A stretch of 64,000 nt of DNA from Halorussus sp. MSC15.2. GTDB lineage: Archaea > Halobacteriota > Halobacteria > Halobacteriales > Haladaptataceae. Positions 53,726 to 63,989 of the stretch are shown here, in pieces. The notes below the pieces were generated by a model. It was not told the origin of the DNA and ran no database searches. It worked only from the letters and a program-made list of their open reading frames with translations. The position numbers and the translations under genes are program-made. Position 1 is the first letter of the stretch. Each line of letters opens with the position of its first letter. The DNA is taken from the NCBI RefSeq assembly GCF_010747475.1, contig NZ_VSLZ01000001.1, positions 558,001 to 622,000 of the forward strand. Reading direction: 5' to 3'.

Positions 53726-55285
53726 ATGTCTGGAATATCCGATGAGACGGGACCGAGCGTCGTCTCGCCGGTGGAACTCGACGCCCGAAAATCGCTGGTC
53801 GGCTTCGATGCGGCCGACGCCGACGCGCTCTCGTCGCTCCCCTTCGACGAGCGAGACGGTGCGGTCACCGACCGACTCCGGGACGCGTACGCGTCCCGCG
53901 AGGACGTGGACGACGAACAGGCCGCGGCGCTTGCCAACCTCGGCGCGTCGCTGACCGACTTCGGTACGGGTTCGGCCGACTCCGGAGTCACCCGGACCGC
54001 CGGAGAGACGTACGATACCGACTTCTTCGCCGAACGGGGACGGTTCGGCGCGGCCCACGACGAAGTCGGTCTCCCACCGTCGGCGTATCTGTGCGGTCAC
54101 GCCCGGTGGTTCGAGGCGGTCCTCCCCGCGCTGCGAGAGACGCTGCAGACGGAGGTCGAACAGACCGTCAGAGAACTCGCGCCGAGCGCGACCGACGCGG
54201 AGACCGACGGCGGCGCGGTCGTCGGCGACGACTCGAAAGGCGACCGCATCGACGCGCTGGTCGAGCAGGTGGACGCCCGCGTCGGCGAGACGTTCGAACA
54301 GGTCGCGTCGCTGGCGAAACTGTTCGCGCTTGACGTCAGCGTCGGTCTCGACGCCTACGAACTCGACGACGCCGAGACGCGCTCGGAAGTCGAGGCGTTA
54401 CGCGAGGACACCGAACGACTGGAGCAGGAACTCGAACGCGCCGACGCTATTGGCGACCGGACTCGCGCGACCGTGGCGGACCTCGACGACTCGGCCGCGG
54501 AGGTCAACGCGAGCGCTCAGGAGATAAGCCAACTCACCGACGAGCAGTCCGACCAGATGAGCCAGATTGCCAGCGAAGTGTCCAAGCAGAGCGCCACCAT
54601 CGAGGAGATAGCGGCCAGCGCCGAGGAGGTCGGCGAGCAGAGTCGCGAGGCCCAGCAACTCGCCGAGGAGGGCCAGCAGCTCGGCCAGCGCGCCATCGAG
54701 GCGACCAGAGAGACCGACGAGACCCGCGAGAGCATCGTGGAGGACGCTCAGGCCCTTCAAGACGCAGTCGAGGAGATTGGCGACGCCGTGGACATGATAA
54801 ACGACGTGGCCGACCAGACCAACTTGCTCGCGCTGAACGCCTCCATCGAGGCCGCCCGCGCTGGCGAGGCGGGAGACGGCTTCGCGGTGGTCGCCGAGGA
54901 GGTCAAGACGCTCGCCGAGGAGTCACAGGACCGCGCCGCCGAAATCGAGTCGATGGTCGAGCGCATCGAGGACCGCGCCCAGAGCACCCTCGACAGCCTC
55001 GGCGAGAGCGAGCGGTCCATCGCCGACACCGTCGAAGCGGTCGAGCGGACGGGCGGCAAACTCGAACGCATCGTGGACGCCGCGACCGAGACCGCGACCG
55101 GGATGGGCGAAATCACCGACGCGACCGACCAGCAGGCCGCCAGCACCGAGGAGGTCGCGAGCATGATAGACGACGCCGCCGCGAAGGCCGACCGGGTGTC
55201 CGAGGAGGTGGACACCATCGCCGCCGCGACCGAGGAACAGGTGATGATGATATCCGAACTCGACGAGACGGTCTCGAAACTGTAG
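53726..55285 (+). CDS. Soluble globin-coupled chemotaxis transducer (HemAT-like)
   Basis: A 519-residue methyl-accepting transducer without membrane helices. Residues about 14-210 resemble the globin sensor of Hem[17 protein letters not shown] opens it and [20 protein letters not shown] places His111 at the proximal haem-binding position. Residues about 215-519 form the signalling coiled coil with the CheA/CheW-binding tip near 361-400 ([35 protein letters not shown]). It probably reports oxygen or another gas to the Che system. A haem role is inferred from alignment by eye. Confidence 0.9.
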
Positions 55286-58207: not shown

Positions 58208-59725
58208 ATGTCCGTCTCTACCGGGAGCGACGTTCTAGATAGAATCCTCGACGGCGGTTTTCCGGAAAATAGGTCGATACTGATTTCGGGCGGGCCGGGC
58301 GTCGGGAAGAGTACGCTGGCGATGCAGTTCCTCCAAGCGGGACTGGCGGACGGCGACCGGTGTCTCTACGTCTCGACCGAGCAGACGGCCGAGGAACTCC
58401 GGTCGTCGTTCGAGGGGTTCGACTTCGACCTCGACCATCCGAACCTGACCATCGTCCACGTCCACGCCCGGACCGGGCGAACCATCGAGGAGGGCGAGCA
58501 GAACCTGACGATGCAGACCACCGACGGCGACGAGGTTCTCGGCGAGGGGTACTCCGCGCCGTTCGAGATGCAGTACGTCGAGGAGTACCTCTCGCGGTTC
58601 GCGCCGTGCGACCGGGTCGTCTTCGACAGCACGGCCAGTCTCGCGGGCATCCGCGACGATTCGCACTTCTTCCAGCGCGCCATCCTCGACCTCGTTCGAC
58701 TGTTCACGGACGAGTTCGGGGCGACCTCGCTGCTCACGGCCGAAGCGCTCGTCTCCGACGACGACTCGGCCGACAGACTCGCCCCGGCGACGGTGCTGGA
58801 GTTCTCGACGCACGGCGTCGTTCGCCTCCGGCGGAGTCCGGTCGAGGGGAACCCGCGCCGGTCGCTCCGGGTCGTGAAGATGCGCGGCGTGGACCACGAC
58901 ACCCGCGAGTACGAACTCGGCATCGACGACGACGGGGTGTTCCTGACGCCACAGAATCGGACCCACGACTTCGGCATCGGGAACGACGTAATCTCGACCG
59001 GGTTCGAGGGTCTCGACGATATAAGCGGCGGTCTCACCAAGGGGAGCGGGGTCCTCTTCGAACACGACGGCCGGGCGTTCGTGGACGGACTGGTCGTCGG
59101 GATGGCCGCCAGCGCCGTCGACTCGGGCATGGGCATCTGGCTGGTTCCGTCGCCGTCGCTCACGCCGACCCGGTTCGAGTCGATGCTTCCGGCCGACGAG
59201 GACGAGATTCCGGCGCTGCTCGACTCCGACTCGCTGTTCGTGCTCGACTCGTTCAACGCTTGGGGGGCCTACGCCGACCACCGGAACGTCTACGCGGCGT
59301 CGTCCAGCGGCCTGCTCAGTCGACTGATGAGCAAGAGCGCGACCGCGTCGATGGCGTTCGTCAAGCGTGTGCTCCGGGACATCACGAACCGGCGCGACCG
59401 TCCCGTCCTCGCGCTGGTGTACACCGAGGCGTTCCTCCGGTGGTTCGACGCGCCGCAGGTCCGGGAACTCTACTACTGGGCGCGCGAGAACGTCTCGTTC
59501 GAGGAGGACACCGTGACGTACATCCACAACCCCGAGACCATGGAGACGAACCTCGCGGAGTTCTTCGTCTACGACGCCCAGCACATGTACCGGACGTGGA
59601 AGCACGAGAACGACATCCAGTACATCGAGGCCGAGAAGTCCATCGCCGGGACCACGAAGTCGATGGGCGTCGTCAACCACGTCGAGACCGCGCCGTACGT
59701 GGAGGTCACGCGTCCGACGAAGTGA
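58208..59725 (+). CDS. KaiC-like double RecA-fold ATPase with degenerate second domain
   Basis: A 505-residue protein with two KaiC/RadA-like domains. The first is complete: TGSDVLDRILDGGFPENRSILISGGPGVGKST, Walker A at residues 28-36, and a Walker B-like DRVVFDSTASL. The second starts near residue 262 (STGFEGLDDISGGLTKGSG), but the P-loop is replaced by FEHDGRAFVDG, so it cannot bind ATP in the normal way. Such haloarchaeal KaiC-like proteins are thought to act in signalling; the target is unknown. It is convergent with the terpene-synthase-like gene. Confidence 0.88.
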   Translation: MSVSTGSDVLDRILDGGFPENRSILISGGPGVGKSTLAMQFLQAGLADGDRCLYVSTEQTAEELRSSFEGFDFDLDHPNLTIVHVHARTGRTIEEGEQNLTMQTTDGDEVLGEGYSAPFEMQYVEEYLSRFAPCDRVVFDSTASLAGIRDDSHFFQRAILDLVRLFTDEFGATSLLTAEALVSDDDSADRLAPATVLEFSTHGVVRLRRSPVEGNPRRSLRVVKMRGVDHDTREYELGIDDDGVFLTPQNRTHDFGIGNDVISTGFEGLDDISGGLTKGSGVLFEHDGRAFVDGLVVGMAASAVDSGMGIWLVPSPSLTPTRFESMLPADEDEIPALLDSDSLFVLDSFNAWGAYADHRNVYAASSSGLLSRLMSKSATASMAFVKRVLRDITNRRDRPVLALVYTEAFLRWFDAPQVRELYYWARENVSFEEDTVTYIHNPETMETNLAEFFVYDAQHMYRTWKHENDIQYIEAEKSIAGTTKSMGVVNHVETAPYVEVTRPTK

Positions 59726-59740
59726 TTCGGGCCGCCGACC

Positions 59741-60742
59741 TCACACCCGGCCTTTGCCCCAGATGAAGTACCGGAGGACCGTCTCCATCCCCTCGACGTA
59801 CGACGTGGCGTCGATAGTCGAGAGGTCCGCGGCGAGTCGCTCGAGTTCCTCGTAGTGGCCCTGCCATCGCTCGAAGAAGGCGGCATCGACGTCGGCGTCT
59901 CTGAGTCGCTCGACGACCTCCTCGCGGTACTCGGGGTCCTCTCTGAGTCGTTCGAGTTCGTCGTAGGTCAGCAGTCCCTCTTCGAGGGCGTGGACGACGG
60001 GACCCGAACTGAAGTCGGTCTCCCGAATCTCGCGCTCCCACGTCGCCACCCAGTTGCCGATGCGGGCCATCATCTGGGCCTGCCACACCATGCGCCGGAG
60101 TTGCGCGAGGTCGTCGGTCGGGAGCGCGGGCGAGTACATCAGGTCGATGTCGGCGTACGCGAACATCATGACGTTGTGCGACTCGTGGAGGGTCAACTCC
60201 CGGTAGTTGGCGAGTTCGGGATACCGCCCGAGTAGATACGAGTACCGTATCGCGTCCACCGCCTGCTGGGTGTCGAATCGGAACAGCGGCAGGTAGAACT
60301 CCGACCGGGGCGCGTCGGCGAGAACGTCTCGCAAGTCGTCCCAGACCCGCTTCGCGAGGCGCAACTGCTCGGACTGGACCGCCTCCCTGTCGGGGTCCAT
60401 CTCGTAGGCCGAGTGGGGAATCTTGGCGGCCTCGTCGAACGTCTCCCGGTCGCGGTCCTTCTCCAGAAAGTCGTCGAGAATCGTGATGAAGACCGTGCCG
60501 AGGGTCTTGGCGGTCCGCACCTCGGTGACGCGGTCGTCGGGAACGAACGAGAACGTGAAGTGGGGCGTCAGTCGGTGGACCCACTTCCAGAGGAACGGGT
60601 CTCGGCTTCCCTCGAAGGCGTCGTACTCGTCAATCAGCGCTCGAATCTCGGGGGGCAACTCGTGGTTCGAGATGCTCTCGACTTCGGCAGGTTCGTCGGA
60701 GGAGGTTACTGTCTCCACGAGGTCCGTCACGTCCGCTCCCAT
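59741..60742 (-). CDS. Probable class I terpene synthase
   Basis: A 333-residue, all-helical protein. It has an Asp-rich motif DDFLEKDRD (Asp90-Asp91) and, 140 residues later, N-x3-T-x3-E (Asn230, Thr234, Glu238) in GNWVATWEREI. These match the two Mg2+-diphosphate motifs of class I terpene synthases in order and spacing, although Trp replaces the usual Asp after Asn. Size fits single-domain bacterial cyclases. It would convert a prenyl diphosphate into a terpene in the cytoplasm. The ATG at 60742 is preferred over 60760 because the TATA box predicts a transcript start near 60749. Family membership needs a profile search. Confidence 0.6.
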   Translation of the reverse strand: MGADVTDLVETVTSSDEPAEVESISNHELPPEIRALIDEYDAFEGSRDPFLWKWVHRLTPHFTFSFVPDDRVTEVRTAKTLGTVFITILDDFLEKDRDRETFDEAAKIPHSAYEMDPDREAVQSEQLRLAKRVWDDLRDVLADAPRSEFYLPLFRFDTQQAVDAIRYSYLLGRYPELANYRELTLHESHNVMMFAYADIDLMYSPALPTDDLAQLRRMVWQAQMMARIGNWVATWEREIRETDFSSGPVVHALEEGLLTYDELERLREDPEYREEVVERLRDADVDAAFFERWQGHYEELERLAADLSTIDATSYVEGMETVLRYFIWGKGRV

Positions 60743-60770
60743 TGTTCCACTGTCAGACATTCAGCGCCGA

Positions 60771-60780
60771 TATTTATACC
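60771..60780 (-). promoter_or_regulatory. Strong promoter of the terpene-synthase-like gene
   Basis: ggtataaata on the minus strand is an excellent TATA box. Transcription should start near 60749, between the ATG at 60760 and the ATG at 60742, which favours the latter. Confidence 0.7.
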
Positions 60781-60927: not shown

Positions 60928-61317
60928 ATGAGTGACGCGACGCTCGTCTACGACGACGACTGCGGGTTCTGCACGTGGTGGGCCGACTTCTTCGAGCGGC
61001 GGTCGGACCTCCGAATCGTCGGGTTCTCGGAACTCACCGACGAACAGCGCGAGCGACTGCCCGACGACTACGAGGAGTGTTCGCACCTTCTGGCCGACGG
61101 CGAGGTATACTCGTGCGGCGAGTCGCTCGAACAGGCGTTGGTCCGGTCGGAGGTCGGCAGCGACCTGACGCAAGTCGTCCGATTCCTCCGGAACTTCGAG
61201 GACTACGACCGCCTCCGAGAGAACGTCTACCGGCAGGTCGCGGACCACCGCGGTCTCCTCGGGCAGGTCGTCTCGAAGACGCCGCCGGCGAGCGAGGGGT
61301 CCGACCGGCGCGACTAG
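60928..61317 (+). CDS. DCC-family thiol-disulfide protein
   Basis: A 129-residue thioredoxin-like protein. The family signature is VYDDDCGFCTWWADF with Cys12 and Cys15 as the redox pair, and CSHLLADGEVYSCGESLEQAL follows. DCC proteins are often encoded beside, or fused to, vitamin-K-carboxylase-like (HTTM) membrane proteins. Here the convergent neighbour is such a membrane protein. Its stop shares CTAG (61314-61317) with that gene's stop. Promoter-like ggaattag at 60896-60903. Confidence 0.87.
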   Translation: MSDATLVYDDDCGFCTWWADFFERRSDLRIVGFSELTDEQRERLPDDYEECSHLLADGEVYSCGESLEQALVRSEVGSDLTQVVRFLRNFEDYDRLRENVYRQVADHRGLLGQVVSKTPPASEGSDRRD

Positions 61318-62807
61318 CGCCCGCCGCGACGGCGCATCCGGCGTCTGGTACGCAGGTCGTCCAACGACACCGGTTCGACGTAGCTCCCCACGCGCTCGCG
61401 GTTCCACCACCGCCCCGTCTCCGACCTCTCCGCGGGCGAGGTGAACTCGTAGCGATACCTGACCGCCCGGACGTGAGTCGGCGGGTCGTCGGGGAAGGGG
61501 TTCGTCCGGAGCAGGCCGAGGGTCGCCTCGTCGCCCTCCAGAAGCTTTTCGAGCAGTCGGGAGAACCAGCGGTGCTGGTACGGCGACGGCGACATCGCGG
61601 CGAACCAGAGTTGCCAGTCGAGTCGCAGGTGGTAGGGCGCGACCTGCGGCGGTCGGCGCTCGGGGTCGGTCGGCTTGCCCTCGAACGTGTACGTCTCCCA
61701 CTCGGTGTCGGGCGTCAGTTCCTCGTCGCTGGTGCCTTCCACCACGATTTCGTAGCGCTCGCGGGTGATGGAACCGAACGCGCCGTAGGTGTTGACGAGG
61801 TGGAGCGGGTCGAACGCGGTGTTCATCACCTGCTCGGACGAGACCATGTTGAGCGTCGGGCGCACGCTCAGGACGGCGACGAGCGCGGTCACGCCGCCGA
61901 CCGCGACCCAGAACCAGAGCGGGAGCGCGACGGTCGCCGGGGCGGTAACCGGGAGACCCAGCGCGCCGAACGCCGACGCCAGCACCGAGTCGGCGAAGGT
62001 GGCGAACGCCAGCACCACCGTGAGCGCGTTGAGCCACGAGAAGTTGCCCGTCACCATCAGCCAGCCCTGAAACAGGATGGTCGCCACACCCGCCAGCGCG
62101 GCCACCGGTTGAGGCGCGAAGTAGAGGAAGGGGACCGCGAGTTCCACGACGTGATTGACCGCGACCGCGGCGCGGTGGACCGGTCTCGGCAGGTGATGGA
62201 CGTACCAACTCGTCGGGTTGGGCATCGGTTGGGTCTCGTAGTGGTACTCCATGCACGTCAGGTCCCGCCAGCACTCGTCGCCCCGGATTTTGATGAGACC
62301 CGCGCCGAACATGTTGCGAAAGAGGAGCCACCGCAGGAGCCAGACGACCGGCCACGGCGCGGCGAACTGCCCCGCGCCGAGGAAGACGGCGAGGAACCCG
62401 GTCTCCAACAGCATCGACTCCCAGCCGAAGCCGTAGAACACGCGCCCGGCGTTGACGAACGAGAGGTAGAGGAGCCACAGGGTCGTCCAGAGCAGCATCG
62501 ACGCCGGGAGGACGTAGGCCCGCGGGAGCCACGAGGGCGCGCCCGCGAGCGCCAGCGCCGAGAGACCGACGCCCGCCCACGCCGCGACACCCATCGCGCG
62601 GTCGGAGGGCAGGAGGTAGAAGAGGCTCGGTCGCCGGCGGAACTCGGCGTACTCGACGTACTCCGAGACGGGGAGCAGGCCGTCTTCGCCGACGAGCGCC
62701 CGGAACTGGGTGGCGGCCACGAGGAACGCGAGCAGGTAGACGACGGCGAGTCCGCGGTGGACGAGCAACCGGACGAGCCAGTAGCTCTCGGGACCCCAGA
62801 GGGCCAT
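61314..62807 (-). CDS. Lipase maturation factor-like membrane protein
   Basis: A 497-residue protein with about eight helices in the first 330 residues and a soluble C-terminal domain. Family features include FVNAGRVFYGFGWESMLLETGFLA, LLFRNMFGAGLIKIRGDECWRDLTCMEYHYETQPMPNP in segments, and MSPSPYQHRWFSRLLEKLLEG. This matches the lipase maturation factor (LMF1) family, known in eukaryotes for folding secreted lipases. The prokaryotic role is not known. The neighbouring DCC redox protein may work with it. Confidence 0.88.
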   Translation of the reverse strand: MALWGPESYWLVRLLVHRGLAVVYLLAFLVAATQFRALVGEDGLLPVSEYVEYAEFRRRPSLFYLLPSDRAMGVAAWAGVGLSALALAGAPSWLPRAYVLPASMLLWTTLWLLYLSFVNAGRVFYGFGWESMLLETGFLAVFLGAGQFAAPWPVVWLLRWLLFRNMFGAGLIKIRGDECWRDLTCMEYHYETQPMPNPTSWYVHHLPRPVHRAAVAVNHVVELAVPFLYFAPQPVAALAGVATILFQGWLMVTGNFSWLNALTVVLAFATFADSVLASAFGALGLPVTAPATVALPLWFWVAVGGVTALVAVLSVRPTLNMVSSEQVMNTAFDPLHLVNTYGAFGSITRERYEIVVEGTSDEELTPDTEWETYTFEGKPTDPERRPPQVAPYHLRLDWQLWFAAMSPSPYQHRWFSRLLEKLLEGDEATLGLLRTNPFPDDPPTHVRAVRYRYEFTSPAERSETGRWWNRERVGSYVEPVSLDDLRTRRRMRRRGGR

Positions 62808-62956: not shown

Positions 62957-63265
62957 CTACCGTTCGGTGACGGTCACAAGTCCGTCGCTGCTGACGGTCA
63001 CTTCGTGGCCGGAGTACGCGAATTCGACCGTGCCCGACCGGGGTTCGTCGGTCGTATCGCGGAAGATTGCGTCGAGCGAGTCGGGGTCTATCGTCCCGTA
63101 GAGCGGTTCGAGCGCCTCGTCGGCGTCGCTCCCCACGGAACTTCGGTCAGAGAACGCCGAGACAGCGGCCACGACCGCCTCCGAAAGCGGCTCGCCGCCG
63201 GACGCTCGGTAGTAGTACGTGTCCTCGGTCTGCCACCCGTCGCTTGCGTTGCTCGCAGATGTCAT
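62957..63265 (-). CDS. HalOD1 output-domain protein
   Basis: A 102-residue protein. Residues about 25-100 match the haloarchaeal HalOD1 output domain: SEAVVAAVSAFSD, LEPLYGTIDPDSLDAIFRD, and VEFAYSGHEVTVSSDGLVTV. HalOD1 is a small domain of unknown mechanism, often at the end of signal systems. The next gene on the same strand, upstream by 55 bases, encodes an HTH-10 regulator. Confidence 0.87.
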   Translation of the reverse strand: MTSASNASDGWQTEDTYYYRASGGEPLSEAVVAAVSAFSDRSSVGSDADEALEPLYGTIDPDSLDAIFRDTTDEPRSGTVEFAYSGHEVTVSSDGLVTVTER

Positions 63266-63320: not shown

Positions 63321-63989
63321 TTAAGTAGTCGTCTGCAGGGCGAGGGTGTTCCGGAGGAGGTTGCGCTGGCCGCGCCGGAGTCGCCTCGACAGCGCCGTGG
63401 TCGAGACGCCCATCTCGTCGGCTATCGCCGCCATCTTCGTCTCGCGCGGCACGTCGAAGTAGCCCGCCTCCAGCGCGCGCAACAGCGCCTCGCGCTGGGG
63501 TTCCGTGACGCCGTACCGGCTCTCGACGCCCCCGTCGTTCGCGACCGACTCCTCGTCGTAGAGCTGTTCGAGGTGGAACTCCATGTCGCGTTCGCGGCAG
63601 GCGTCGCGGAGCGCGGCCAGCGCCTCGCGAGAGGGAAACCGAGCGAGGAGGCGCAGCCTCTCGGCCGTCATCGTGAGGTCGAGAATCGTGATGTCCTGCT
63701 CGACGACTATCGGGTGGAGCGCTCGGGGGTTGGTGTTTCCGGCGAGCGTGACGCCATAGAGGCGTCGGTCCGGCAGTTCGGTCAGGAGTTCGTAGCCCGC
63801 CACGTCCGGGTCGTCGGCGAGCGCGGCCTCGTACGCCTCGAAGTCGTCGCCGGACGCCCAGAAGATGACCCGCCACTCGCTGTCGTGGTCCGAGCGAATG
63901 TCTTCGAGTCGTAGTATCATGTCCGGGACGGCCTGAAGTGCCCCCTGTCCGGGCTGGGAGTCGGTCTCGACCCTGCCGATGAGAGCCAT
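63321..63989 (-). CDS. HTH-10 (Bat-type) transcriptional regulator
   Basis: A 222-residue regulator. The C-terminal HTH-10 domain is clear: LTEPQREALLRALEAGYFDVPRE-type sequence (TEPQREALLRALEAGYFDVP) and MAAIADEMGVSTTALSRRLRRGQRNLL. The N-terminal 150 residues are a BAT-like sensor fold, as in bacterioopsin activator. The ATG at 63989 gives a typical start (MALIGRVETDS), although the frame stays open to the window edge. The stimulus is unknown. Confidence 0.88.
   Translation of the reverse strand: MALIGRVETDSQPGQGALQAVPDMILRLEDIRSDHDSEWRVIFWASGDDFEAYEAALADDPDVAGYELLTELPDRRLYGVTLAGNTNPRALHPIVVEQDITILDLTMTAERLRLLARFPSREALAALRDACRERDMEFHLEQLYDEESVANDGGVESRYGVTEPQREALLRALEAGYFDVPRETKMAAIADEMGVSTTALSRRLRRGQRNLLRNTLALQTTT

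Follow-up and report, generated by a model that had tools for sequence, protein, structure and literature searches.

A probable divergent class I terpene synthase in Halorussus, from an archaeal family linked to sensors and regulators

Does a gene near one end of a 64,000-nucleotide stretch of the genome of Halorussus sp. MSC15.2 (hereafter the window) encode a class I terpene synthase, as a sequence-only reading of that stretch had proposed? A search of open-licence PubMed Central papers turned up no archaeal class I terpene cyclase whose product is known. Besides halocin and bacterioruberin, no archaeal gene cluster has been confidently linked to a secondary metabolite (PMC10105419, 2023), and the terpene clusters reported by antiSMASH in Halomicroarcula come without products (PMC8600319). 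The analysis described here indicates that the gene's product is probably a class I terpene synthase of a divergent archaeal type, with a fold closest to that of the terpene cyclases, and its best overall reading is of such a synthase under sensory control.

The extent of the gene had to be settled before its residues could be compared. The sequence-only reading had given about 333 residues and had numbered the key residues D90/D91 and N230/T234/E238, which is right if translation starts at Met7, a start that the evidence supports. The same reading frame stays open back to an ATG at 60760 (59741..60760, minus strand), for 339 aa from the first ATG; residue numbers used below are those of the 339-aa frame, in which the residues just named become D96/D97 and N236/T240/E244. 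MGADVT is conserved in the four Halorussus sequences compared, two of which either lack the upstream ATG or have it out of frame. The promoter that had been claimed is represented by a conserved TATA box, TATAAATA, found before the gene at 28 nt from the Met7 ATG and only 10 nt from the first ATG. Because MGADVT is conserved and the spacing of the TATAAATA box fits a leaderless transcript, translation most likely begins at the 60742 ATG (Met7), on a leaderless haloarchaeal transcript (Table 1). Values of dN/dS between 0.20 and 0.32 against three Halorussus relatives show that the synthase gene is under purifying selection. In another genome of the genus (G172; locus L087, 5140-5480), only a remnant of the synthase gene is found, with an internal stop and a truncation; the ppc and DCC1 genes that flank it are intact, and the gene is therefore dispensable. 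The KaiC-like neighbour was looked for at this remnant locus and was not found.

Table 1. Coordinates of the synthase gene, its motifs and promoter, and neighbouring genes in the window.
Feature	Position	Strand	Evidence and remarks
Terpene-synthase-fold protein gene	59741..60742	minus	333 aa from conserved start M7; PF19086, AlphaFold model, structural matches
Asp-rich metal motif DDFLE, D96-E100 (D90-E94 from M7)	60461..60475	minus	Conservation in 54 relatives
NSE/DTE-type triad, N236-W-x-x-T240-W-x-R243-E244	60029..60055	minus	Conservation and profile alignment register
TATA box TATAAATA, promoter of synthase gene	60771..60778	minus	Conserved with preceding CAGCAAACRCCAARG in four Halorussus species
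KaiC-like ATPase gene	58208..59725	plus	PF06745 E=1.4e-42; convergent with synthase gene, stop codons 15 bp apart
HalOD1 output-domain protein	62957..63265	minus	PF18545 E=4.7e-20
Bat-type (BAT + HTH_10) regulator	63321..63989	minus	PF04967 E=5.6e-16, PF15915 E=9e-12; about 2.6 kb upstream of synthase

The encoded protein resembles class I synthases in its fold and metal motifs and not in its sequence as a whole. Of the two terpene synthase profiles to which the sequence-only reading had pointed, PF19086 (Terpene_syn_C_2) matches the window protein just above the Pfam cut-off (E=4.2e-5; 23.8 bits against 23.7). Of 54 relatives, 46 also match PF19086 when E values up to 1 are allowed, and 11 give a weak PF03936 match. 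Above the cut-off, PF19086 matches occurred in 30 of 194 Halobacteria genomes searched, one of which carries canonical synthases. PDB chains searched with the sequence and with a profile gave no match up to E=1, and the NCBIfam search gave no meaningful match. Prediction of the structure from the single sequence reached a pLDDT of 49.6, and that model was discarded. The AlphaFold model built from the alignment of 54 family members, whose identity to the window protein goes down to 24%, has a pLDDT of 93.5 and a pTM of 0.91 and is all-helical, as had been claimed. Class I terpene synthases account for most of its top Foldseek matches among solved structures (probability 1.00). In VIA-align, the selinadiene, T-muurolol and epi-isozizaene synthases, together with the alpha domains of plant synthases, aligned with it over 250-294 residues at Z scores of 20-21. 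The fold on which the earlier claim depended is thus present in a confident model, with Z of about 21 to class I synthases. A shared fold is not the same as a shared function, and prenyltransferases with other chemistry have this fold as well; the fold and metal motifs are supported, and from them we infer cyclase activity.

The motifs themselves lie where the sequence-only reading had placed them. DDFLEKDRD begins at D96 and GNWVATWERE at G235, and the N-x3-T-x3-E within the latter follows at the claimed distance, 140 residues from D96 to N236. Across the 54-member alignment, D97 is invariant, D96 is kept in 50 sequences and replaced by Asn in 4, and E100 is Glu in 47 and Asp in 7; in the triad region N236, W237, W241, R243 and E244 are found in 54/54, and T240 in 53/54 with a single Ser. 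D249, D206, R222, R233 and R53 are also invariant. Since the motif residues are kept in 54 relatives down to 24% identity, the motifs are not due to chance. In the AlphaFold model, DDFLE and the triad each sit towards the C-terminal end of a helix (75-100 and 215-246, respectively), and these two helices come in the order of D and H in class I synthases. In a profile alignment with five canonical synthases, including a pair from another haloarchaeon, N236/T240/R243/E244 fell on N383/S387/K390/E391, the alignment being a weak one (hhalign E=0.0067, probability 5.7).

While the fold and metal motifs support the reading as a class I terpene synthase, the usual sensor Arg and Arg-Tyr pair of such enzymes are not at their normal places, and the triad Asn is followed by Trp in 54/54 sequences, not by the Asp of the ND consensus. 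This Trp had been raised as a warning. The departure from consensus is real, but the Trp is invariant across the 54 relatives and is therefore a family signature, not decay of the window copy. The Asp normally found there is a consensus residue and not one of the three metal ligands, so its replacement lessens the closeness to the canonical type and does not affect the fold assignment. In Methanosarcina-like relatives the N, T and E are kept and the Trp position is occupied by Thr or Ala. A pyrophosphate-sensor Arg was sought in the 54-member alignment 46 residues before the triad Asn, where position 190 is W, E, T, L, R or Q with no conserved Arg; one of the invariant residues R53, R222 or R233 could take over the sensor role. 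The same alignment contains no C-terminal Arg-Tyr pair, a feature typical of the bacterial synthases; its sequences have ends resembling S-R-G (Arg at position 336 in 27/54, Gly at the next position in 47/54), and the C terminus of the window protein is GKGRV. None of these three family-wide departures (the Trp, the sensor Arg and the Arg-Tyr pair) is a metal ligand.

Comparison with known systems shows both shared and differing features. Like the bacterial and fungal PF19086 synthases (T-muurolol, selinadiene, epi-isozizaene, hydropyrene and aristolochene synthases), the window protein has an all-helical fold, with Z of 20-21 to several of them, and an Asp-rich motif followed about 140 residues on by N-x3-S/T-x3-E with a Lys or Arg before the Glu. 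Unlike them, it has a Trp for the Asp after the triad Asn and lacks both the sensor Arg at N-46 and the C-terminal Arg-Tyr; identity in structural alignments is about 10-17%, and its family is linked to regulators. Canonical PF19086 synthases of one haloarchaeon, encoded as a pair in genome G183 (locus L072, 5500-6936 and 7660-9051), belong to the same Pfam family and come from the same archaeal class, but they score 161-167 bits against 23.8 for the window protein, carry the classical ND.YSL.KE motif and an N-terminal SRPBCC-like domain (PF10604), and each adjoins its own gene that is polyprenyl-synthase-like by sequence. This canonical pair lies near transposase-like ORFs (L072, 4305-10007).

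Because the fold is shared beyond the cyclases, other enzymatic roles have to be weighed. A prenyltransferase of this fold would move a prenyl group onto a small molecule with no cyclisation, in the manner of DabA in domoic acid synthesis, and the N-prenyltransferase DabA (6vkz) is indeed among the structural matches of the window protein, at Z 20.1. DabA transfers its prenyl group to an amine, however, and there is no evidence of such an acceptor for the window protein; no acceptor-modifying genes were seen beside the window gene, and cyclases make up most of the top structural matches, so that a prenyltransferase of this kind seems improbable. Chain-elongating prenyl diphosphate synthases and squalene/phytoene synthases have the same superfamily fold, and FPP synthases are among the Foldseek matches listed. 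The second motif of the window protein is nevertheless N-x3-T-x3-E (NWVATWERE), not a second DDxxD, and neither PF00348 nor PF00494 matches the protein in Pfam. The carotenoid and squalene synthases of haloarchaea (SQS_PSY, PF00494), members of the same isoprenoid-synthase superfamily, serve the pigment and lipid pathways of these organisms, and the window's genome already has three separate genes of this squalene/phytoene type as well as two polyprenyl synthases. That the window gene encodes either kind of enzyme is scarcely credible.

A terpene biosynthetic cluster was sought in the window and none was found. On the upstream side lies a divergent DCC1-like thiol-disulfide oxidoreductase gene, followed by lipase-maturation-factor-like, HalOD1 and Bat-type HTH_10 genes; the DCC1-like and lipase-maturation-factor-like genes (60928-62807) overlap tail to tail by 4 nt, and the lipase-maturation-factor-like product is a membrane protein. 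The KaiC-like ATPase gene adjoins the synthase in four Halorussus genomes, 4 loci from other genera have a HalOD1 gene directly upstream of their synthase gene, and regulators with BAT and HTH_10 domains adjoin it in other genera. Elsewhere in the window (53726-55285) there is a gene for a methyl-accepting chemotaxis protein with a protoglobin domain, a HemAT-like oxygen sensor. In a sister clade of three genera, an FAD-dependent oxidoreductase gene stands beside the synthase, a placement consistent with a tailoring role, and the same loci contain hybrid histidine kinases; the oxidoreductase is absent from the window's genome. Recurrent neighbours encoding a PLP enzyme and a metallo-beta-lactamase were set aside as the shared synteny of one group. 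Beside the g103 synthase, a DUF92 membrane protein gene is the divergent neighbour (L110, 6825-8219); the DUF92 family includes a phytyl-phosphate kinase, and an isoprenoid link is possible.

Across the family as a whole, linkage to sensors and regulators is pronounced. A HATPase, PAS, receiver or BAT domain was encoded within 1 kb in 35 of 92 family loci, against 43 of 1160 control positions; the controls came from 40 stretches of 20 kb, chosen arbitrarily in the same set of genomes. With FilR1-type HTH regulators added, the counts became 47/92 loci (26/41 genera) against 51/1160 (4.4%), making such adjacency about ten times commoner than chance. The profiles used to detect linkage were seeded from synthase loci, which is a possible source of bias; independent whole-genome counts, however, put HATPase_c genes at about 33 and HTH_10 genes at about 31 in each genome, from which adjacency would be expected for about 3-4% of genes, close to the 4.4% of the controls. 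The arrangements vary, with Bat-type genes either divergent or on the same strand and kinases on the same strand either downstream or upstream; in the Methanosarcina-like group a PAS-HisKA_2 kinase is directly upstream of the synthase. On the family tree the sensor-neighbour trait requires 8 state changes and is present in several separate clades, and thus the linkage is not one inherited accident. On a plasmid of Halorussus halophilus, the synthase gene and an HTH gene overlap by 4 nt, and in genome G075 a single 505-aa frame (L053, 5763-7280) has a receiver and HalX fused to the synthase N terminus. Sensor linkage is therefore a property of the family; the window gene has no such regulator within 1 kb, and in its case a sensory connection is what its relatives suggest.

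These findings can also be read as pointing to a signalling protein. On this view the terpene-synthase fold has been retained to serve as a sensor or output domain that binds prenyl diphosphates, or to supply a terpenoid ligand, and the protein acts jointly with the sensor kinases and regulators encoded beside it. The linkage to kinases and to Bat-type and FilR1-type regulators in 26/41 genera, in several arrangements, favours such a role, as do the receiver-HalX-synthase fusion, the 4-nt overlap on the Halorussus halophilus plasmid, the odd triad and the lack of a conserved Arg at the usual sensor position. Yet the metal ligands are conserved throughout the 54-member set, and a pure binding domain would not obviously need them; the fusion is the only one among the 148 genomes searched of G075's taxonomic family, and where a regulator adjoins a biosynthetic gene it usually does no more than control expression of that gene. 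We therefore consider a signalling protein unlikely. A related proposal, that this terpene-synthase-fold family has joined archaeal signal transduction by making or binding an isoprenoid perceived by a neighbouring PAS/two-component or Bat-type sensor, is doubtful, if a little less so. If this proposal were true, archaea would have an isoprenoid-based signal.

Returning to the reading that we prefer, a divergent class I synthase under sensory control, a mechanism can be proposed. Asp96 and Asp97 (with Glu100) together with Asn236, Thr240 and Glu244 would bind Mg2+ together with the diphosphate group of a prenyl substrate. The substrate would be FPP or GGPP from the lipid precursor pathway, presumably supplied by the polyprenyl synthases of the window's genome. 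The enzyme would ionise the prenyl diphosphate, and quenching of the resulting carbocation would give a hydrocarbon or alcohol of the sesqui- or diterpene class. The linkage data suggest that neighbouring PAS/two-component, Bat-type or FilR1-type regulators would control expression or, in some lineages, activity. Since regulators are encoded next door, formation of the product is probably confined to certain conditions, for example of light, redox or oxygen. The sensor links make archaeal use of the family testable, and if the family is active, it would open up an entire domain of life for terpene chemistry.

The distribution of the family is broad but patchy. A class-wide search found relatives in 121/391 Halobacteria genomes and 39/86 genera, and beyond Halobacteria a profile search covering the phylum recovered members in f13/g103, f29/g124 and f13/g134-g145, lineages that appear to be methanogens; the f13/g134-g145 group is distant, with E of about 1e-25 and no PF19086 match. 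The family thus occurs in about a third of sampled haloarchaeal genomes and in methanogen-like genomes, yet the members carried by six plasmid records, all haloarchaeal, are annotated as hypothetical protein. Viral contigs and phage records contained no relative, and there was no match at E<=0.001 among viral structures; a viral origin was dropped on these grounds. In three methanogen-like genomes (G593, G515 and G478), relatives have internal TAG or TAA codons or split frames, which may reflect decay or, for TAG, readthrough.
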